Origin: an uncultured Alphaproteobacteria bacterium
GTDB lineage: Bacteria > Pseudomonadota > Alphaproteobacteria > Micropepsales > Micropepsaceae
Assembly: GCA_903857685.1 (NCBI GenBank)
Contig: CAIOFO010000114.1
Span: 1-45,006, forward strand
DNA: 45,006 nt
Direction of reading: 5' to 3'
Below the pieces are notes generated by a model, which saw nothing but the letters and a program-made list of their open reading frames with translations, had not been told where the DNA came from and did not search any database. A program made the translations under genes and the position numbers. The stretch's first letter is position 1, and every line of letters starts with the position of its first letter. Below are positions 2,736 through 33,588 of this stretch, one piece after another.

Positions 2736-3853
2736 ACCCTGAGCGGCATGAGGACGTAGAGGGTGCGCGGGTCCTCTGCGTCTTCGATAATGGCGGGCGA
2801 GCCGGCATCGGACAAAAGGAAACGCACTTCCTTGCCTTCGATCTGGCCGGTGATGTCCAGCAGGTAGCGCGCGTTAAAACCGATCTCCAGCGCCGCGGCG
2901 CGATAGGTGGCGCCCACATCTTCCGTCGCCGTGCCCGATTCCGGGTTCACCACCGACAAGGTGACCTTGTCCTTGGCGATATTGAGTTTCACCGCGCGGG
3001 TCTTGTCGGCGCTGATGGTCGAGACGCGGTCCACCGACTGGGAGAATTCCTTGGCTTCCAGCGCCAGGGACTTGTCATTGCCCGAGGGAATGACCCGCTC
3101 ATAGGGCGGGAAATTGCCGTCAATCAGCTTGGAGGTGAGTTCGACGCCGTTGAAGCCGAACTGGATCTTGGTGTCCGACAGCGAAATCTCGATGGCGCCT
3201 TCGGCATCGTCCAGCAGCTTGCGCAGTTCATTCACGGTCTTGCGCGGAATGATGACGCCCGGCATCTGTTCGGCTCCGGCCGGCAGTTCCAGCTCATAGC
3301 GCGCCAGACGGTGGCCATCGGTGGCCACGGCCCGCATCACCGGCGGCTTGGCGTCGGATGCGGCATGGACATAGATGCCGTTGAGATAATAGCGCGTCTC
3401 CTCCGTCGATATGGCGAAGCGGGTCTTGTCGATGATGCGCTTGAGATCGTTCGCCGCCAGCCGGAAGCGATGGGGCAGGGCGCCCGCCGCCATCTGCGGA
3501 AAATCGTCCTTGGGCAGGCAGGCCAGCTCGAAGCGCGAGGAACCGGCCGACACGGCCAGCCTGCCGCCTTCGCTGGTGAGAAGCTCGACCTGCACCTGGG
3601 CGCCGTCCGGCAGCTTGCGGACAATGTCGTAGAGCATATGCGCCGGCGCGGTGGCGAAACCATTGCGCAGCACATCCGAGGGGATGGACTCCACGATTTC
3701 GATATCCAGGTCGGTGGCGGTGAGCTTCAGCGCGCCCTTGCCCGCTTCCAGCATCACATTGGACAGGATCGGGATGGTGTTGCGGCGTTCGACAACGCTC
3801 TGCACATGGCTGAGAGCCTTGAGAAAGGCGCCCCGTTCGACATTGATTTTCAT
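2732..3853 (-). CDS. dnaN: DNA polymerase III sliding clamp subunit beta
   Basis: The beta clamp forms a ring dimer on DNA that tethers polymerase III and recruits repair proteins. The 373-residue product has the usual clamp length and three-domain organisation. It opens with MKINVERGAFLKAL and VVERRNTIPILSNV, and ends in the family-typical YVLMPLRV. The ATG at 3853 is the natural start. The stop overlaps the recF TTG, so dnaN-recF-gyrB look co-transcribed. A rho-independent terminator after dnaA at about 4013-4041 implies that dnaN has its own promoter in 3854-4010 rather than depending on read-through from dnaA. Confidence 0.97.
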   Translation of the reverse strand: MKINVERGAFLKALSHVQSVVERRNTIPILSNVMLEAGKGALKLTATDLDIEIVESIPSDVLRNGFATAPAHMLYDIVRKLPDGAQVQVELLTSEGGRLAVSAGSSRFELACLPKDDFPQMAAGALPHRFRLAANDLKRIIDKTRFAISTEETRYYLNGIYVHAASDAKPPVMRAVATDGHRLARYELELPAGAEQMPGVIIPRKTVNELRKLLDDAEGAIEISLSDTKIQFGFNGVELTSKLIDGNFPPYERVIPSGNDKSLALEAKEFSQSVDRVSTISADKTRAVKLNIAKDKVTLSVVNPESGTATEDVGATYRAAALEIGFNARYLLDITGQIEGKEVRFLLSDAGSPAIIEDAEDPRTLYVLMPLRV

Positions 3854-4012
3854 GATCGCGACCGCTGTTCCGCTGCTGACAAAACCCCAAATCCCGGCCG
3901 AAATCGTCCGGCCGGAAAACCCGTTTTCTTGTGTTTTGGAACGGCCCCGGGCAGCAAAAAAGGGGCGCCAAGACTCAAGTGGAGGACCATACCAAAAGAG
4001 GCGGAAAAGGGC
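3854..4012. promoter_or_regulatory. dnaN upstream region
   Basis: This gene-free stretch between the dnaA terminator and the dnaN start should hold the dnaN promoter and leader. I see no convincing -35/-10 pair or operator, and no strong Shine-Dalgarno sequence right before the dnaN ATG. The call rests on position only. Confidence 0.35.
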
Positions 4013-4041
4013 AAAAAAAACGCGGCCGAAACCGCGTTTTT
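4013..4041 (-). terminator. Rho-independent terminator of dnaA
   Basis: On the minus strand the arms 4041-4032 and 4025-4016 pair perfectly over ten base pairs (AAAAACGCGG with CCGCGTTTTT) around a six-base loop. A run of eight U follows the GC part of the stem. It starts about 42 bases past the dnaA stop. The A and T tracts make it partly symmetrical, so it could also act weakly on the plus strand. Confidence 0.85.
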
Positions 4042-4082
4042 CTGGTCCGCTTTTGGGCGGGATTCCGGGCTTTTTTCAGCCC

Positions 4083-5603
4083 CTAGAGTTCGCCCCGGCG
4101 CTGAAGCATTTGCGACAGAAAATCGACCTCCTGGCGGAACAGCGGATCCTCGTCGATCAAGGCCTCGATCCGCCGGCAGGCGTGCAGCACCGTGGTGTGG
4201 TCGCGGCCGCCGAAACGCCGTCCGATCTCGGGCAGGGAGCGGCTGGTGAGCTTGCGCGACAGGTACATCGCAACCTGGCGCGGCCTGGCCACCCGCCGGG
4301 CGCGCTGGGGCGAATGGAAATCCTTGACTTCCAGCTTGTAGAACTCGGCGGTCTTGCGCTGGATATCCTCGATCGAGGTCTTGGCGCCGGGGCTGGACCT
4401 CAGGCCCACCGCCTCTTCCGCCGTCTCCAGCGTCACCGGCTTCTTGGTGAGGTCGGCATAGGTCGCCAATTTGGTGAAAACGCCAATCAATTCGCGTGGG
4501 CTGGCATCGTCAAGGTCGGCAATGCGCTCCAGCACGGCTTCCGGCAGCACCACTTCGGGCTTGTGGCGGCTGAATTCCGCCGCGCGCGCCCGCACGATGA
4601 GCAGGCGGGTATCGCGATCCGGCTTGTCCAGGGCAATGCAAAGGCCGCCTGCCAGCCGCGATTTGACGTCCGCGCCCAGACCTTCCAGCGCTTGCGGGGC
4701 ACGGTCGGCGGCGATCACCACCCGGCGGCGCAGATCGGCAAAGGCGTTGACGGTGTAGAGGAATTCCGACGCCGTGGCGGTGGAGCGGCAGATATGCTGC
4801 AGATCGTCAATGATCAGCACTTCGGCGGTGCGCAGCTCTTCTTTGAAGGCCAGCGTGTCCTTGCGATAGAGCGCTCCCAGGAAATGGCGCATGAAATCCT
4901 CGGCGCGCAGGAACAAGGTGCGCTTGCCGCGCTTGCGGAATTCCAGCGCCGCGGCATTGAGCAGATGGGTTTTGCCGAAACCGAAGCCGCCATGGATATA
5001 GAGCAGCGGGATGTCGCTTTGCTGGCCTTCGGCAAAGGCGCGTGCCGCGCCGTGGCCGAACTCGTTGGCGCGGCCCGGAATGAAGCTGTCAAAGGTCTGC
5101 TGCGGGTGCAGCATCCGCGTCCACAAGCCCTTGGCTGTGTCTTCTTCGCGGCATTCGGCGCGCGGCGGCAGGTAGGAGACATTGCTGGCGGGCAGGTCGG
5201 CGGGCGCGGTGTCGCGCAGCGCATTGCCGCCGATGCTGGGCGGCGGCGCCGCCATCACAATGGACAGGGAAACCGGCTCGGCGCCCTCGGCCCGGAAGGC
5301 GCGTTCGATGCGGGCGACATAGTGATTGGCCACCCAGTTGCGCACAAACGGCTTGCTGGCGCCGATCTTGAGCTCATCCTTGTCGCAGGATTCCAGGCTC
5401 AGGGGACCGATCCAGGCCTCGAACACCGGATCGCCCAGTTCCCGCCGCAGCCGGTCCCGGACCGCACTCCACGCCGCCGGCCAATCAGGCCGCATCGGCT
5501 TTCCCGTCAATTGTCCCATCATCTTACCCATGCATTGTGGCCCGATATACGGCGCCATCTGTTTCTTGTCGGCGCGCCTTTGCGCGTCCGTCGGCTCATT
5601 CAT
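4083..5603 (-). CDS. dnaA: Chromosomal replication initiator DnaA
   Basis: DnaA is the AAA+ initiator that binds DnaA boxes and melts oriC. The 506-residue product starts at the ATG at 5603, preceded by GAGGG. A TTG at 5621 would add six residues. An N-terminal oligomerisation domain (about 40-115) is followed by a variable linker and the AAA+ domain, with Walker A GGFGFGKTH at about 205-213 and Walker B LIIDD at about 263-267. The C-terminal DNA-binding domain carries the signature GGRDHTTVLHACRRIE. The roughly 35 residues before the conserved N-terminal domain are unusually Met-rich, so the true start could lie further in. A strong terminator follows the gene. The rhodanese-like gene lies 45 bases upstream on the same strand. 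Confidence 0.96.
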   Translation of the reverse strand: MNEPTDAQRRADKKQMAPYIGPQCMGKMMGQLTGKPMRPDWPAAWSAVRDRLRRELGDPVFEAWIGPLSLESCDKDELKIGASKPFVRNWVANHYVARIERAFRAEGAEPVSLSIVMAAPPPSIGGNALRDTAPADLPASNVSYLPPRAECREEDTAKGLWTRMLHPQQTFDSFIPGRANEFGHGAARAFAEGQQSDIPLLYIHGGFGFGKTHLLNAAALEFRKRGKRTLFLRAEDFMRHFLGALYRKDTLAFKEELRTAEVLIIDDLQHICRSTATASEFLYTVNAFADLRRRVVIAADRAPQALEGLGADVKSRLAGGLCIALDKPDRDTRLLIVRARAAEFSRHKPEVVLPEAVLERIADLDDASPRELIGVFTKLATYADLTKKPVTLETAEEAVGLRSSPGAKTSIEDIQRKTAEFYKLEVKDFHSPQRARRVARPRQVAMYLSRKLTSRSLPEIGRRFGGRDHTTVLHACRRIEALIDEDPLFRQEVDFLSQMLQRRGEL

Positions 5604-5648
5604 CCGGCCCTCAGCCGGCAATCTGCTTTCGTCGCATGCATGTCCCCT

Positions 5649-6098
5649 TCAGGATTGTTTCCAGGCAAGGCCCTCGGCCTTCCAGCCTTTTTCATTGCCG
5701 CGGTGGCGCTTGGCATCGAGATCGCCCTCAAAACCGCCCGCGATATTGAAAGCCTTTTGAAATCCCGCCCGTGTCATCGCGATGGCGGCGGCGCGCGAAC
5801 GCGCGCCCGAGCGGCAGAGAAAAAATACCGGCGCCTCGGGGCTCGCGCCGGCGCCGGCCAGCGCGCCCGAGGTTTGCACCACGAAATCGCCATTGGGCGC
5901 CATGGAAGGGAACATCTGCCATTCGACGCAATGAACCTTGCGGCCCAGCTCCGCCAGATCCGGCAGGCCGACGAAATTCCACTCCGCAACGGTGCGCACA
6001 TCCACCAGCTGAGCCTTGGGATCGCTCTTGAGCGCGTCCCAGGCTTCGGCAGCGCCAACATCGCCTGCATAGTCGAGAGAGGAAGGGGAAGAAGACAT
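5649..6098 (-). CDS. Rhodanese-like domain protein
   Basis: A single-domain rhodanese of about 149 residues, presumably a cytoplasmic sulfurtransferase or persulfide carrier. The sequence shows LVDVRTVAEW in the first half and the active-site loop FLCRSGARSR with catalytic Cys at about residue 95. It ends in GGFEGDLDAKRHRG and GLAWKQS, a C-terminus often seen in this group. The ATG at 6098 (MSSSPSSLDYAG) was chosen because the family homology begins there. An ATG at 6146 would add 16 residues; neither start has a clear Shine-Dalgarno sequence. It lies directly upstream of dnaA on the same strand, so the two may share a transcript. The physiological sulfur acceptor cannot be read from the sequence. 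Confidence 0.88.
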   Translation of the reverse strand: MSSSPSSLDYAGDVGAAEAWDALKSDPKAQLVDVRTVAEWNFVGLPDLAELGRKVHCVEWQMFPSMAPNGDFVVQTSGALAGAGASPEAPVFFLCRSGARSRAAAIAMTRAGFQKAFNIAGGFEGDLDAKRHRGNEKGWKAEGLAWKQS

Positions 6099-23058: not shown

Positions 23059-25701
23059 CTATTCGCCCGCCACCGGCTCCGGTTTTTTCTTGGGCGCGGC
23101 CTTCTTGGCGGGCGCGGCTTTTTTCTTGGCGGCAGCCTTCTTTTGCGGCTTCTCGGCCGTGGTCTCGGCCTTGGGCTTGGCGGCCGGCTTCGCCGCCGCT
23201 TTCCTTTTCTTTTTCTTGCCGCCGCCCTTGGCGATGCGCTCGGCCAGAAGCGCCTGCGCCTGCTCCAGCGTCACCGCCAGAGGATCGCTGACTTCGGGAA
23301 TGGTGGCATTGGTGTCGCCATCGCTGACATAGGGACCATAACGGCCCTTCAGCACCCTGATCGCCACGCCATCGGCGCCGGCGCCCAGTTCCTTCAGGAC
23401 TTCCGGCCCGCGCCGTCCGCCCTTGGCCTTTTTCTCGGCCAGGATGGTGACGGCATGGTTGAGACCGATATTGAAAACATCCTCGGGCGTTTCCAGCGAG
23501 GCATACTTGCCGTCATGGGCGACATAGGGCCCGAAGCGGCCGAAATTCGCCGTGATCATCTTGCCGTCTTCGGGATGGGCGCCCACTTCGCGCGGCAGTG
23601 ACAGAAGCCTTACTGCCATGTCCATGTCCACATCGGCGGGATCGGTGCCCTTGGGCAAGCCGCTGCGCTTGGGCTTCTTGTCTTCGCCCAGCTGCACATA
23701 AGGACCGAAGCGGCCCGAGCGCAGAGTCACCATGGTCTCGGTGCCGGGGAACAGTCCCAGCTCGCGCGGGCCGGCATCGCCTTCGCCCGGCTTGGCGCCG
23801 ATCTGGCGGGTGAATTTGCATTCCGGATAATTGCTGCAGCCGACAAAGGCGCCGAAGCGGCCCAGCTTCAGATTCAGGCTGCCATTTTCGCAGGACGGGC
23901 ATTTGCGCGGATCAATGCCGGGTTCGCCCGCCGGAAAGATGTAGGAGCCCAGGACGGAATCCAGTTCGTCGATCACCTGGCGGATCTTGAGATCCTTGGT
24001 GCCGCCAACGGCTTCCGAAAATCCGGTCCAGAAATCGCGCAGCAGCTGCTTGTAGTCCAGTTCGCCGGCCGAAACCTTGTCGAGCTGCTCTTCCAGGTCG
24101 GCGGTGAAGTCATACTCGACATAGCGCTTGAAGAAGCTCTGCAGGAAGGTGGTGACCAGCCTTCCCTTGTCCTCGGGATAGAAGCGCCCGCGATCCTGCC
24201 GCACATAGGCGCGGTCGCGCAGGGTGGACAGGATGGTGGCATAGGTCGAAGGCCGGCCGATGCCCAGCTCTTCAAGCTTCTTGACCAGGCTGGCTTCGGA
24301 ATAGCGCGGCGGCGGCTCGGTGAAATGCTGCGCCGAGTTGACGTTCTGCGCCTTGGCCGCGTCACCCGCCGCAACCTTGGGCAGCTTGGAGCCTTCTTCG
24401 TCGGCGCTGTCGTCCTCTCCTTCCAGATACAAAGTGAGAAAGCCGTCGAACAACGTGACGGTGCCGGTGGCGCGCAGGGTGATCTTCCGGTCGGCGGAAA
24501 TCACGTCCACCGTGGTGCGTTCCTGTTCGGCGGACTCCATCTGGCTGGCGACGGCGCGCTTCCAGACCAGCTCGTAAAGCCTGGCGGCATCGGCATCGAG
24601 ATACTTTGCCACTTCTTCCGGCGTGCGCGCAAAGCTGGTGGGACGCACCGCTTCATGGGCTTCCTGCGCGTTCTTGGCCTTGCTGGTATAGACGCGGGCC
24701 GAAGACGGCACATAGCGGGCGCCGTATTTCTCGCCGATCACCTGGCGCGCCTCGGCAATGGCTTCCGGCACCATGATGATGCCGTCGGTACGCATATAGG
24801 TGATCAGGCCGGTGGTCTCGCCGCCGATTTCCACGCCTTCATACAGTCCCTGCGCCACCTGCATGGTGCGCTTGGCGTTGAAGCCCAGCTTGCGCGAGGC
24901 TTCCTGCTGCAGGGTCGAGGTAATGAAGGGCGGCGACGGATTGCGTTTGACCGGCTTGGCCTCGACGCTGCCGATGGTGAATTTCTGCGCCTTGATCGCC
25001 TCCACCGCCTTGGCGGCGTCGGCCTCGTTGGTCAGCGACAATTTTTCCAGCTTCTTGCCGTCCAGCTGGATCAGCCGTGTCGGGAAACTGCCCGCGACGG
25101 TTTCCACCTCGGTATCGATGCTCCAATATTCCTGGGCCTTGAATGCCTCGATTTCCGTTTCGCGCTCGACCACCAGCCGCAGCGCCACGGATTGCACCCG
25201 GCCCGCCGAACGCGCGCCCGGCAGTTTGCGCCAAAGCACCGGCGACAGGGTAAAGCCGACCAGATAGTCCAGGGCGCGGCGCGCGAGATAGGCGTCCACC
25301 AGTTCCTGGTTGATCTGCCGGGGATGGGCAATGGCGTCCAGGATCGCCGATTTGGTGACGGCATTGAACACCACCCGCTCCACCGGCATCTTGCCCAGGG
25401 CGTGCTTGTCGCGCAGCACTTGCAGGATGTGCCAGCTGATGGCTTCGCCTTCGCGGTCCGGGTCGGTGGCCAGGATCAGCTTGTCGGCGCCTTTCACCGC
25501 GCTGGCGATGTCCTTCATCTTGGACTGGGCGCGGGCATCCACTTCCCACACCATGGAAAAGTCGTCATCCGGCTTCACCGACCCGTCCTTGGAGGGCAGG
25601 TCGCGGATATGGCCGAAGCTGGCCAGCACTTTGTAGCCGGAGCCGAGATACTTATTGATGGTCTTGGCTTTGGCGGGGGATTCGACGACGAGGACGTTCA
25701 T
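23059..25701 (-). CDS. topA: DNA topoisomerase I
   Basis: Type IA topoisomerase that relaxes negative supercoils, opposing gyrase. The 880-residue product has the Toprim start VVESPAKAKTI (Glu7), LATDPDREGEAISWH (about 77-91), and active-site Tyr302 in GLITYMRTDG. A C4 zinc ribbon (KCPSCENGSLNLK, then GCSNYPECKF) is followed by repeated GRFGPYV modules. The last 50 or so residues are almost only Lys, Ala and Pro, a disordered DNA-binding tail common in this class. The ATG at 25701 gives the canonical MNVLVVESPAKA. The TAG stop is followed at once, in frame, by rnr. Confidence 0.97.
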   Translation of the reverse strand: MNVLVVESPAKAKTINKYLGSGYKVLASFGHIRDLPSKDGSVKPDDDFSMVWEVDARAQSKMKDIASAVKGADKLILATDPDREGEAISWHILQVLRDKHALGKMPVERVVFNAVTKSAILDAIAHPRQINQELVDAYLARRALDYLVGFTLSPVLWRKLPGARSAGRVQSVALRLVVERETEIEAFKAQEYWSIDTEVETVAGSFPTRLIQLDGKKLEKLSLTNEADAAKAVEAIKAQKFTIGSVEAKPVKRNPSPPFITSTLQQEASRKLGFNAKRTMQVAQGLYEGVEIGGETTGLITYMRTDGIIMVPEAIAEARQVIGEKYGARYVPSSARVYTSKAKNAQEAHEAVRPTSFARTPEEVAKYLDADAARLYELVWKRAVASQMESAEQERTTVDVISADRKITLRATGTVTLFDGFLTLYLEGEDDSADEEGSKLPKVAAGDAAKAQNVNSAQHFTEPPPRYSEASLVKKLEELGIGRPSTYATILSTLRDRAYVRQDRGRFYPEDKGRLVTTFLQSFFKRYVEYDFTADLEEQLDKVSAGELDYKQLLRDFWTGFSEAVGGTKDLKIRQVIDELDSVLGSYIFPAGEPGIDPRKCPSCENGSLNLKLGRFGAFVGCSNYPECKFTRQIGAKPGEGDAGPRELGLFPGTETMVTLRSGRFGPYVQLGEDKKPKRSGLPKGTDPADVDMDMAVRLLSLPREVGAHPEDGKMITANFGRFGPYVAHDGKYASLETPEDVFNIGLNHAVTILAEKKAKGGRRGPEVLKELGAGADGVAIRVLKGRYGPYVSDGDTNATIPEVSDPLAVTLEQAQALLAERIAKGGGKKKKRKAAAKPAAKPKAETTAEKPQKKAAAKKKAAPAKKAAPKKKPEPVAGE

Positions 25702-25889: not shown

Positions 25890-25941
25890 CTAAACCATAG
25901 GTTGTTTATAAAAGGCATGATTTTGCTCGGAAACCCTGGTT

Positions 25942-27047
25942 TCAGGCCCAGGACACCAGATTTCCCGGGTGCCGGCGGCAACGCCCGGCCAATTCCAGCT
26001 CCAGCAGCCGGTCAGGACCGCCGAAGCGGGGGCGCCGGTCAGGCGAATCAGCTCATCGGCATGGACCGGGGCAGGGCCCAACGCTTCCTCGACCGCCCGG
26101 CGCACCCGGTCCGCTTCGGCTTCCAGCGCCGCCGCATCGGGCTGGATATTCGGGCCTGCGCCCTCGGGATCGCGGAACTCTTCGCCCAATATCGGTCCCA
26201 GCAAGGCCAGCACATCCTCGGCGCTTTCAGTCAATGTGGCGCCTTCGCGGATCAACCGGTTGGCGCCCCTGGCGCGCGGATCCAGCGGCGAGCCCGGCAC
26301 GGCGAAAATCTCGCGCCCCTGTTCCAGCGCATATTGCGCCGTGATGAGGGAGCCGGAACGCTCCGCCGCTTCCACCACCACCAGCCCCCGCGCCAGGCCG
26401 GAGATCAGCCGGTTGCGGCGGGGGAAGTGACGCGCCTGGGGCTGTTCGCCCAGCCGCATTTCCGAAATGATGGCGCCCTGCTCGCGGATGGCGTCATAGA
26501 GTTTCTGGTTCTCCGGCGGATAGACCACATCCACCCCGCCCGCCAGTACCGCGACCGTGCCGGTGCCGAGCGCGCATTCATGCGCCGCGGCATCAATGCC
26601 GCGCGCCATGCCGGACGCGATGGCAAGATTTGCCGCCGCCAATTCCTGCGCCATCACGAAGGCGAATTTGCGCGCCAGCGCCGAGGCGTTGCGCGCCCCG
26701 ACAATCGCCACCATGTCGCGTTTCAGAAGATGGCCATTGCCCAGCACGGCAATCATGGGCGGCGGCGGTTCCAGCGCCGCCAGACCTTGCGGAAAGTCCG
26801 GCTCGCAGGCGGCGATCAGCCGTCCGCCCAGTTTTGCAAGCGCCTCAATCTCGCGCGCACTGTCCGCTACCGGCGGCAGGATGAAATTCTTGCCCCCGCC
26901 GCGCGCCGCCAGGCGCGGCAATTCCGCAAGCGCCGCGCCGGCGCTGCCGAAGCGGGCGATCAGGCTGGCGAAAGTAACCGGGCCGACATGCTCGGTGCGC
27001 GCCAGCCGCAGCCAGTCGCGGCGCTCCCGGTCGTCAAGCGCCCGCAC
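25942..27047 (-). CDS. dprA: DNA processing protein DprA, with an apparent one-base frameshift near the 3' end
   Basis: DprA binds incoming single-stranded DNA and loads RecA during transformation. The Rossmann domain is intact: VAIVGARNASALARKFA, ASGMARGIDAAAHECAL, VLAGGVDVVYPPEN and VVVEAAERSGSLITAQYALEQGREIFAVPGSP. The C-terminal winged helix starts normally (HADELIRLTGAPASAVLTG), then the frame turns into unrelated sequence ending at 25890. One base missing near 26008-26012 would restore LLELELAGRCRRHPGNLVSWA with a TGA at 25942-25944, the expected family ending, about 368 residues in all. Start is GTG at 27047, overlapping plsY by 14 bases. Sequencing error or a real mutation cannot be told apart here. 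Confidence 0.9.
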
Positions 27048-27663
27048 CGCCCGCCCCGTTCTTCTTGGATCCGATGCGCGGTTCCTCGCCGGCCAGCAGC
27101 CGGCGGATATTTTCCCGGTGCATGAAGATGATCAACGCCGCCAGCAGCACCGCCAGCGGAACATAATCGCGTTGGCCGAAGGCGAAGAAATAGACCGGCG
27201 AAAGGGCAATCGCGAGCAGCGCCGATAGCGACGAGACGCGCCAGACAAACGCCACGGCCAGCCATGTCGCTGCCACCAGCAATCCCACCGGCCAGAACAG
27301 GGCGAAGGCAATGCCCAGATAAGTGGCGACACCCTTGCCGCCCTTGAACCCAAGCCACAGCGGAAACAGATGCCCCAACACCGCCGCCAGCGCCGCGAAA
27401 ATTTCTGCGCCGGGCGCCAGGAAATGCCGCGCGATCAGCACCGCTGCTGCGCCCTTGGCGCCATCACACAACAACGTCGCCGCCGCCGCCCACTTTTTGC
27501 CGGTGCGCAGCACATTGGTGGCGCCGATATTGCCCGAGCCGATCTTGCGCACATCGCCCGCCCCCGACAGCCAGGCGAACAAAAGCCCAAACGGAATCGC
27601 GCCGAGCAAATAGCCCAGCGCCAAGGCGGCAAGCGCGGCGGTAACCGGCAAGGGGGCACTCAT
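27034..27663 (-). CDS. plsY: Glycerol-3-phosphate acyltransferase PlsY
   Basis: Membrane acyltransferase that transfers acyl from acyl-phosphate to glycerol 3-phosphate, the first step of phospholipid synthesis. The 209-residue product has several transmembrane segments and the three PlsY motifs: IGSGNIGATNVLR, the glycine-rich FKGGKGVATYLG, and FMHRENIRRLLAGEE near the C-terminus. The ATG at 27663 begins a typical hydrophobic N-terminus. It sits between pyrC and dprA in a conserved alphaproteobacterial order and overlaps dprA. Confidence 0.96.
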   Translation of the reverse strand: MSAPLPVTAALAALALGYLLGAIPFGLLFAWLSGAGDVRKIGSGNIGATNVLRTGKKWAAAATLLCDGAKGAAAVLIARHFLAPGAEIFAALAAVLGHLFPLWLGFKGGKGVATYLGIAFALFWPVGLLVAATWLAVAFVWRVSSLSALLAIALSPVYFFAFGQRDYVPLAVLLAALIIFMHRENIRRLLAGEEPRIGSKKNGAGGAGA

Positions 27664-30007: not shown

Positions 30008-31285
30008 TTAAGCAGCCATTTCTTCCAGCGTTTTGCCCGCCGGTTCGGGCAGGAACAGAATGGCGACCAGGGTGACCGGAATGGTGCAAAGAAGCGCCTG
30101 GATCGCCGGGCCATGACCGTGGAAATGGTCGAACAGCCGCCCTTCCAGCGTCAGGCTCACCGCCCCCATGCCGATCTCCACCACATAGCGCAGCCCCGAC
30201 ACGGTGGCGCGGTAATGGGTGGGCACGATCTCCAGGGCGAAACCGGCGATCATCGCGTCGCCGGAGAAAAATCCGAAAAAGGACAGCACCCACAGCAGCG
30301 GCATCCACATCGCCGCCACGCCGCTGTAGAAAAGATAAAAGCCGATGCCGGCGATGCTGGCGATGGCCATGGGCCTGCGGCCGACACGGTCGGACAATCG
30401 CCCGGCCAATATCGCCAGCGCCAATCCGGCGAAGCCGCCGGGAATGAACAGTGCCGTCTCCTGGCCCGGCGTATAATGAAAGACGCTCTGTAGGTATTTG
30501 GATGACAGCACGCTGGCGGGCGCAACCGCAAAACCGAAGGCGGCGGCGGCGGTCACGATGGTGATGATGCGGCCGGGATATTGCCGCGCCATATCGCGCA
30601 GCAGCGCCAGGCCGGCCGCGCTGCGCGAGGAAAAATTCTGCAAGCCCTCCTGCGCCGCAAAACGCTGCGTCTCCGGCAGCCTGCGGCGCAGATAGGCGAC
30701 AAAGAACAACGGCGCCGCCCCGATCACGTAGATCGCCCGCCAGCCATAGGGCAGAAAATTCACCGCCGCAAACACCAGCGAGGCCAGCCCCGCGCCGGTA
30801 TAGTCCATGGCGCTGACGGTGCCGTTGGCCCAGCCGCGCGCCCCCGCCGACACTTCCTCGGCGATGACGACAAAGCACAGCATCTCCTCGGCATAGCCGA
30901 AGACGCGGGTCAGAAGCTGCGCCCAGACAAAGGTGACATAGGTGGTGGTCGCGGCGGTCAGCAGGGTGAAAACCGCCTGGCCCAGGAGCGTGAACAACAA
31001 CAATCGCCGCCGTCCCACCAGGTCGGCGGACGCCGCCAGCAGCAGCGCGACAATCGTGGCCAGCCGGAAATAGGCGACCGTCACGCCCACCATGTTTTCC
31101 GGAATGGCAAGGCTGGCCTGGATCTGGGGAATGGCCAGGCCGAAAATATTCTGGTCGAAACCGGCAAACAGCGCCGCCGACCCCACCAGCAGGAAGACGC
31201 GTTCCTGCCGCCACACCATCGCCACCGGCGGCCGCAATCCTGGCGGCAGCCAGCGGAAGCGCGCCGGTGAGGCGTCATCCCTCAT
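30008..31285 (-). CDS. Major facilitator superfamily transporter
   Basis: A 425-residue, twelve-helix MFS transporter. The cytoplasmic loop motif between helices 2 and 3 is ASADLVGRRRLLL, and the matching loop in the second half is AGRLSDRVGRRPMA, so both halves are intact. The family resembles sugar or metabolite porters (FDQNIFGLAIPQIQ near helix 1, LRRRLPETQRF before the central loop). The substrate cannot be assigned. The start overlaps the ruvX stop as ATGA, so the gene is coupled to ruvX and lies between ruvX and pyrB, where many relatives have no transporter. It may be a later insertion into the operon. Confidence 0.9.
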   Translation of the reverse strand: MRDDASPARFRWLPPGLRPPVAMVWRQERVFLLVGSAALFAGFDQNIFGLAIPQIQASLAIPENMVGVTVAYFRLATIVALLLAASADLVGRRRLLLFTLLGQAVFTLLTAATTTYVTFVWAQLLTRVFGYAEEMLCFVVIAEEVSAGARGWANGTVSAMDYTGAGLASLVFAAVNFLPYGWRAIYVIGAAPLFFVAYLRRRLPETQRFAAQEGLQNFSSRSAAGLALLRDMARQYPGRIITIVTAAAAFGFAVAPASVLSSKYLQSVFHYTPGQETALFIPGGFAGLALAILAGRLSDRVGRRPMAIASIAGIGFYLFYSGVAAMWMPLLWVLSFFGFFSGDAMIAGFALEIVPTHYRATVSGLRYVVEIGMGAVSLTLEGRLFDHFHGHGPAIQALLCTIPVTLVAILFLPEPAGKTLEEMAA

Positions 31286-31737
31286 CGCCGCATCCGGTCG
31301 AGAGCGATTTGCAGGATGTAAGCCGCCGCCATCTTGTCCACCACTTCGCCGCGCTTCTTTCGCGAGGCATCGGCCTCGATCAGGGTGCGGGTCACCGCGC
31401 TGGTGGAAAGCCGCTCATCCTGGAATACGAGGGGCAGGGGGCTGTGGTTCACCCAGTTGCGGCCGAAAGCCCGGGCCGACTGGGCCGATGGGCCGTCGGA
31501 ACCGTCCATGTTGAGCGGCAGCCCCACCACCAGCCCGCCGACCCCCTGCTCACTTATTATAATGTCCAGCCGGGCGGCATCGGCGGCGAATTTGCCCCGT
31601 TTCAGGGTCTGCATCGGGGTGGCCACGGTCAGAAGCCGGTCCGACAGGGCCAGGCCAATGGTCTTTTCCCCCAGGTCCAGCCCCAGCAGGCGCAGACCCG
31701 GTTCAAGCGACAAGGCGGCTATGTCGGTCACCGCCAT
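31282..31737 (-). CDS. ruvX: Holliday junction resolvase-like protein RuvX (YqgF)
   Basis: RNase H-fold protein of the YqgF family, linked to 16S rRNA 5' processing and recombination. The 151-residue product has LRLLGLDLGEKTIGLALSD near the start, VGGLVVGLPLNMDGSDG in the middle, and the C-terminal FQDERLSTSAVTRTL followed by DKMAAAYILQ. The acidic residues of the fold are present. The ATG at 31737 was chosen because sequence upstream in the same frame is only the antisense of gatC. It diverges from gatC with 82 bases between starts. Confidence 0.95.
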   Translation of the reverse strand: MAVTDIAALSLEPGLRLLGLDLGEKTIGLALSDRLLTVATPMQTLKRGKFAADAARLDIIISEQGVGGLVVGLPLNMDGSDGPSAQSARAFGRNWVNHSPLPLVFQDERLSTSAVTRTLIEADASRKKRGEVVDKMAAAYILQIALDRMRR

Positions 31738-31819
31738 GAAATTCCCGCCCTTTTCCTTGCCAGTGCCGCCCCTGATTGCTAGCAAGTTCGCGCCTTTCTT
31801 ACAAAGCAGGAAGCCTTCC

Positions 31820-32107
31820 ATGTCCGTTGACAAGGACACCGTGCGCCGCATCGCCAAACTGGCCCGTCTTGCCGTGCCCGAGGAAAATCTGGCGCCGATG
31901 GCCGATGCCCTGAACGGAATCTTCAACTGGGTGGAGATGCTGGGTGAGGTGAATGTCGAGGGCGTCCCCGCCATGACATCCGTGATCGCCCAGAAACTCA
32001 AATGGCGGCCGGATGCGGTGACCGACGGCGGCAATGCCGATGCCCTGATGGCGAACGCGCCCGAGCATGAAGGCACCTTCTTTGTAGTGCCCAAGGTGGT
32101 GGAATAA
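31820..32107 (+). CDS. gatC: Aspartyl/glutamyl-tRNA amidotransferase subunit C
   Basis: Small subunit that stabilises the GatCAB amidotransferase, which converts misacylated Glu-tRNA(Gln) or Asp-tRNA(Asn) to the amidated forms. The 95-residue product reads [18 protein letters not shown], then [19 protein letters not shown], then the GatC-typical RPDAVTDG and a C-terminal FFVVPKVVE. The ATG at 31820 sets the usual length. gatA begins two bases after the stop. Confidence 0.96.
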
Positions 32108-32109
32108 CC

Positions 32110-33588
32110 ATGTCCACCGCATTCACGCTTGCCAAGGCGCGCGACGCGCTCAAGGCCAGGAAAATTTCTTCCAAAGAGCTGACCCAGTCGTTCATCGCTG
32201 CGGTGGAACAGGGCCGTCCCCTCAACGCTTTCGTCACCGAGACGCCGGAAAAAGCGCTGGCGATGGCCGCCGCCTCCGATGCGCGATTGGCCAAGGGTGA
32301 GGGCGGGGCGCTGGAAGGCCTGCCGCTGGCGATCAAGGATCTGTTCTGCACCAAGGGCGTGCGGACCACGGCGGGCAGCCGGATCCTGGGCAATTTCGTG
32401 CCGCCTTACGAATCCACCGTGACGCAGAATCTGTGGAACGCCGGCGCAGTGATGCTGGGCAAGACCAACATGGATGAATTCGCCATGGGCTCTTCCAATG
32501 AAACATCCGCCCATGGCCCGGTGTTCAATCCCTGGCGGGCGAAAAATTCCAACGCCAATCTGGTGCCCGGCGGTTCCTCGGGCGGTTCTTCCTGCGCCGT
32601 CGCCGCCGATCTTTGCCTGGCCGCCACCGGCACCGACACCGGCGGCTCGATCCGCCAGCCCGCCGCCGTCACCGGCACGGTCGGCCTGAAACCCACCTAT
32701 GGCCGCTGCTCGCGCTGGGGCATCGTTGCTTTCGCCTCGTCGCTGGACCAGGCCGGGCCCATGACCAAGACGGTGCGTGACGCCGCCATCCTCCTGGGCA
32801 GCATGGCCAGCGTGGACGCAAAAGATTCCACCAGCATGGATGTGCCGGTGCCCGATTATGAAAAGCTGCTGGAAGGCGGCATCAAGGGCCTGAAGGTCGG
32901 CATTCCGAAGGAATACCGCATGGACGGCGCCCCGCCGGAAATCGCGGCGCTGTGGGACAAGGGCGCGGACTGGCTGAAGGCCCAGGGCGCGGAGATCGTC
33001 GAAGTCTCGCTGCCCCACACCAAATATGCCCTGCCGACCTATTACATCGTCGCCCCGGCGGAATGCTCGTCCAACCTGGCGCGCTATGACGGCGTACGTT
33101 TCGGCCACCGGGCCAAATCCGCCCGCGACATCACCGATCTGTATGAGAAAAGCCGCGCCGAGGGCTTCGGCGCCGAGGTGCAGCGACGCATCCTGATCGG
33201 CACCTATGTGCTGTCGGCGGGCTATTACGATGCCTATTACGCCCGCGCCCAGAAACTGCGCACTCTGATCGCCCGCGATTTCACCGAAGCCTACAGGAAA
33301 TGCGATGTGCTGCTCACGCCCGCCACGCCGGGTCCCGCCTTCGCGGTGGGCGACAAGAGCGACGATCCCGTCGCCATGTATCTCAACGACGTCTTCACCG
33401 TCACCGTCAACTTGGCCGGGCTGCCCGGCCTTGCCGTGCCGGCGGGCCTGACCGAAACCGGCCTGCCGCTGGGCCTGCAGCTGATCGGCAAGGCCTTTGA
33501 CGAAGCCACCGTGCTGCGGGCCGGCCTGGCCATCGAGCAGGCCGCCGGCTTTGCCCACAAGCCCGCCAACTGGTGGAGGGCGGCATGA
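32110..33588 (+). CDS. gatA: Aspartyl/glutamyl-tRNA amidotransferase subunit A
   Basis: Glutaminase subunit of GatCAB and member of the amidase signature family. The 492-residue product has the catalytic triad Lys76 ([10 protein letters not shown]), Ser156 ([11 protein letters not shown]) and nucleophile Ser180 ([12 protein letters not shown]). The substrate-side block [18 protein letters not shown] is also typical. Start ATG at 32110, stop overlapping the gatB ATG as ATGA. Presence of GatCAB suggests that this organism makes Gln-tRNA and/or Asn-tRNA indirectly. Confidence 0.97.

Follow-up and report, generated by a model that had tools for sequence, protein, structure and literature searches.

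The dprA gene in the window (the whole stretch of 45,006 nucleotides analyzed here, from an uncultured member of the Micropepsaceae) ends out of frame, and the likely cause is a real and recent one-base deletion that forms part of a breakdown of natural transformation. The same genome has lost a second gene of the transformation pathway, comM, and further dprA lesions occur in related genomes.

As annotated, dprA spans positions 25890–27047 on the minus strand and encodes 385 amino acids from a GTG start codon, with a one-base frameshift close to its 3′ end. In a profile search, the window protein was identified as DprA by a match of 215 bits to the dprA equivalog TIGR00732 (cut-off 191), and it also matched PF02481 as the DprA core with 230 bits, PF21102, and a part of PF17782. 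The gene is preceded by plsY (27034–27663, minus strand; PF02660) and followed by topA (23059–25701, minus strand), and the extended dprA frame stops short of topA. A pattern search detected no promoter or terminator around the end of dprA. The closest copies are those of the related genomes G024 and G083, with protein identities of 79% and 78%, respectively. The genus is called Rhizomicrobium (Micropepsaceae) here, because DNA of genome G041 is identical over 1,701 bases to that of Rhizomicrobium electricum DSM 21034. A protein-level match to dprA was found in 63 of the 69 genus genomes searched, and 60 of these copies, a few of them partial, were used for a frame-aware alignment, leaving out G010 and G067, which are affected by contig edges, and G019, which has only a 40%-identical relative of the gene.

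The last in-frame codon that the gene has in common with its relatives ends at 26010, and the lost base maps to 26008–26012 (minus strand). The native C-terminal coding sequence is still present but lies out of frame (25942–26009, minus strand), where the next frame after the lesion reads LLELELAGRCRRHPGNLVSWA, followed by a TGA stop at 25944–25942. A preliminary description of this DNA had stated that the annotated end is unlike DprA and that a shift by one base yields a typical DprA ending; both statements are borne out, with position, peptide, and stop codon all correct. Residues 347–385 of the annotated frame (39 residues) are out-of-frame sequence foreign to DprA. The last 17 or so of them derive from the 52 bases between the native and the new stop (25890–25941, minus strand), which are not conserved and cannot be aligned with relatives. 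The likeness of the shifted frame to a DprA end exceeds chance, because the C-terminal 20 residues of the G024 protein align with this frame at 75% identity (E 0.003) and the DNA of G083, compared from the other side, changes frame at the same place. The alignment with close relatives that had been proposed as a check revealed a one-base gap within 26008–26012 in the window only, the base being present in 23 of 23 relatives. In the frame-aware alignment, the base is missing from the window copy and from none of the 59 other genus copies. With relatives free of the lesion and a native frame that goes on beyond it, dprA resembles a frameshifted pseudogene in these two respects.

As had been proposed, the lesion affects the winged-helix domain. 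The remaining part of this domain comprises residues 304–346 (26010–26139, minus strand) and matches positions 2–44 of the 61 positions of the DprA_WH profile PF17782, whereas intact relatives reach position 61 in five of five cases. Like three-domain DprA proteins consisting of an N-terminal SAM/HHH, a Rossmann, and a winged-helix or DML1 domain (e.g., PDB 3MAJ), the window protein has complete N-terminal and Rossmann domains, but its winged helix breaks off and is followed by the foreign tail. The intact relative from G083 can be aligned with 3MAJ, which is DprA from Rhodopseudomonas palustris, from residue 19 to 380 of 382. Structure prediction was of low confidence both for the window protein (mean pLDDT of 39.7) and for an intact relative (54.8). 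Based on these models and the layout of winged helices, the lesion might tentatively be placed in the final helix of this domain.

The consequences for the protein can be approached by analogy with characterized DprA proteins. In Deinococcus radiodurans, loss of the last 63 residues of DprA decreased genomic transformation only 10-fold (PMC7314969). For DprA of H. pylori, the C-terminal domain is described as important in the assembly of the nucleoprotein complex and the N-terminal domain as sufficient for DNA binding (PMC4489622). A domain review within a further paper assigns the C-terminal domain a part in the formation of higher-order oligomers (PMC9769556). Because of these data and because the N-terminal and Rossmann domains are kept, the truncated window DprA may be weakened rather than dead, and partial function is plausible.

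In the genome from which the window originates, comM has been cleanly deleted. A profile search of this genome yielded no match to the ComM C-terminal family PF13335, and only weak matches to the full ComM model TIGR00368 (best E 8.5e-5). In G083, comM has a ferredoxin-like gene on one side and a small gene on the other, and pst-like genes lie farther out, as judged by reading the translations. The same neighbors are encoded on contig C105 of the source genome, separated by about 92 bp as compared to 2.4 kb including comM in G083. Since these neighbors are located on one contig, comM is deleted and not hidden in an assembly gap. No inserted element was found at the place of either dprA or comM in this genome. 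The comEC gene is present as an open frame of 709 residues. Contig C105 also harbors, beside the lost comM, a stretch of about 2.7 kb (3275–5961) with cupin-like and transporter-like frames recognized by eye, which G083 does not have at this place.

The preliminary description had explained the frameshift either by a base that the assembly lost or by a mutation of the strain, and these are indeed the two readings between which the evidence has to decide. A sequencing or assembly error would mean that dprA is intact in the organism and that the contig dropped one base, for example owing to a strain mixture in the binned draft genome. This is rather unlikely, even if the source genome is a draft of 3.0 Mb in 160 contigs (100% complete, about 2% contaminated), in which the window corresponds to contig C114, and even if dprA has this one lesion and no further decay. 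The branch leading to the window copy (0.17) can be compared with those of G024 (0.23) and G083 (0.25); as the branch is not long and dprA shows no decay elsewhere, the lesion is either young or an error. Further frameshifts, as they would be found in an indel-rich assembly, are not seen in the screened quarter of the genome. In this screen, frames of G024 were compared by tblastn with 760,640 bases of the source genome, a procedure by which short tails can be missed; it covered 132 orthologous ORFs with 42,434 aligned residues and flagged seven places, among which dprA was the sole frameshift accepted. Moreover, the lesion site is not a long homopolymer, and the independent deletion of comM in the same genome would be expected under a real loss but not under an error. 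A real mutation is favored because of the lone accepted frameshift among the 132 ORFs, the comM deletion, and the dprA lesions in other Rhizomicrobium genomes, and the lesion is probably present in the organism.

Concerning the other flagged places, reading of the frames identified four of them (L126, L127, L079, and one at 8.9 kb of the window) as ends of neighboring upstream genes, and two (L090 and one at 31.7 kb of the window) as opposite-strand frames, ruvX being encoded on the minus strand at 31.7 kb. A mirror screen of 136 ORFs of the source genome against the DNA of G024, which tests G024, flagged eight places including dprA; besides dprA, only the place at 31.7 kb of the window was inspected. 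The open frame at 31282–33558 (minus strand) comprises 758 residues with a RuvX domain only at residues 623–754, and the true ruvX start is probably located inside this frame. A plasmid search resulted in three partial matches only, and viral contigs contained no exact match to the dprA lesion site.

Two further explanations were considered. It is extremely improbable that the tail represents an alternative C-terminus of a functional DprA variant: the frame runs uninterrupted as far as 25890 and ends before topA, but a tail ending there was found in none of the 59 other aligned genus copies, and the origin of its last residues from unalignable DNA past the native stop also argues against it. 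Programmed frameshifting or transcript slippage could in principle restore the native end, which is intact out of frame, but is no less far-fetched, as had been anticipated, since inspection of the junction by eye revealed neither a slippery heptamer nor a long homopolymer and the site is missing from the 59 other genus copies.

The interpretation as a real mutation can be placed in the context of the genus. Broken dprA genes were found in 7 of the 60 aligned copies, namely in the window, G001, G014, G017, G043, G075, and G079, and each is broken differently. In G005, G019, and G023, dprA is missing, and plsY is directly followed by topA on one contig. These three genomes without dprA (loci L212, L211, and L210, respectively) are devoid of comM and comEC as well. 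Six broken copies were found in control genes, three of which are doubtful single stops (pyrB, 0/62; pyrC-like, 2/62; topA, 4/67). The lesion rate per 100,000 codons, taken from the search output with partial copies counted at full length, was 5.7 for the controls and 27.9 for dprA (p 0.009), the latter being based on 6 of 59 copies without the source genome.

By simple counts, defects of dprA coincide with defects of comM and comEC. Among genomes with a completeness of at least 85%, comM was defective in 9 of 10 dprA-defective and in 7 of 38 dprA-intact genomes (p 5.7e-5), and omission of the source genome changed the former to 8 of 9 (versus 7 of 38; p 1.5e-4). When only broken and not missing dprA genes were considered, also without the source genome, the proportions were 5/6 and 7/38 (p 0.0037). 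These tests left out 14 genomes in which comM occurs as partial pieces, as well as four genomes (G076, G010, G051, and G067) in which contigs split dprA or cut it off. The former include G024, G047, and G084, in which comM had been counted as absent under an earlier grouping that gave 9/10 versus 10/41 at 85% completeness (p 2.4e-4). For comEC, defects were present in 7 of 10 dprA-defective and 4 of 46 dprA-intact genomes (completeness of at least 85%; p 1.4e-4), with comEC of G014 scored as defective on one TAG within its match. A tree-aware pair test was not significant (six pairs, 3.3 the same way and 0.1 the other way; median p 0.25), and all seven broken dprA copies fall in one part of the tree with 28 copies. 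In G043, dprA is broken while comM and comEC are whole. In G041, the matches to dprA, comM, and comEC show no break. The link of dprA defects with comM and comEC defects is suggestive but not proved.

Several genomes of the genus harbor split genes. In G003 (L223), G049 (L224), and G062 (L225), comM is interrupted near residues 321–335 by 4.6, 1.9, and 4.5 kb of extra DNA, respectively, and in G046 (L226/L227) it is split near residues 361–366 by about 20 kb. The split sites look like a recurrent insertion hotspot. On contig C16 of G007, at about 494.9–524.4 kb (L202, L203), comEC is present in two halves about 29.6 kb apart. In G051, topA is seen in two frames (C11, 16027–18584; residues 1–132 and 155–880) and dprA is split over two contigs, possibly as a result of misassembly.

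Recurrent loss of competence is already known from other groups. For Pasteurellaceae, a study describes recurrent losses of competence genes by frameshift and deletion (PMC1626085), and the lesions in Rhizomicrobium are similarly scattered and lineage-unique and affect genes of the transformation pathway. However, dprA is present in eight of eight genomes in the table of that study, whereas dprA itself has been hit repeatedly in Rhizomicrobium. Mobile elements that disrupt competence genes, comM among them, are described for Acinetobacter and Legionella (PMC11472951), and insertion of AbaR into comM for Acinetobacter (PMC7508600). The comM genes that extra DNA interrupts in several Rhizomicrobium genomes resemble these cases; the source genome differs from them in that its comM is deleted and its dprA frameshifted with no element seen at either place. 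A literature search yielded no paper that deals with transformation in Rhizomicrobium, and the word competence occurred together with the genus name only in single mentions.

Judged from the gene content, natural transformation may be reduced or lost in the lineage of the source genome. In the preferred reading, transformation would have ceased to be of benefit to this lineage; comM would have been cleanly deleted already, and dprA would then have been freshly hit by a one-base deletion destroying the last part of the C-terminal winged-helix domain, with comEC still open; both this order of events and the cause of the losses are deduced from the present state of the genes. On balance, Rhizomicrobium seems to be losing transformation repeatedly, often with joint loss of comM, dprA, and comEC, and the window would represent an early-stage lineage in this process. 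A single broken dprA is ordinary; here, the genus has six other, different dprA lesions in addition to three clean deletions. If real, this pattern means that the genus provides related genomes at different stages of transformation loss, in which it can be asked which gene goes first.
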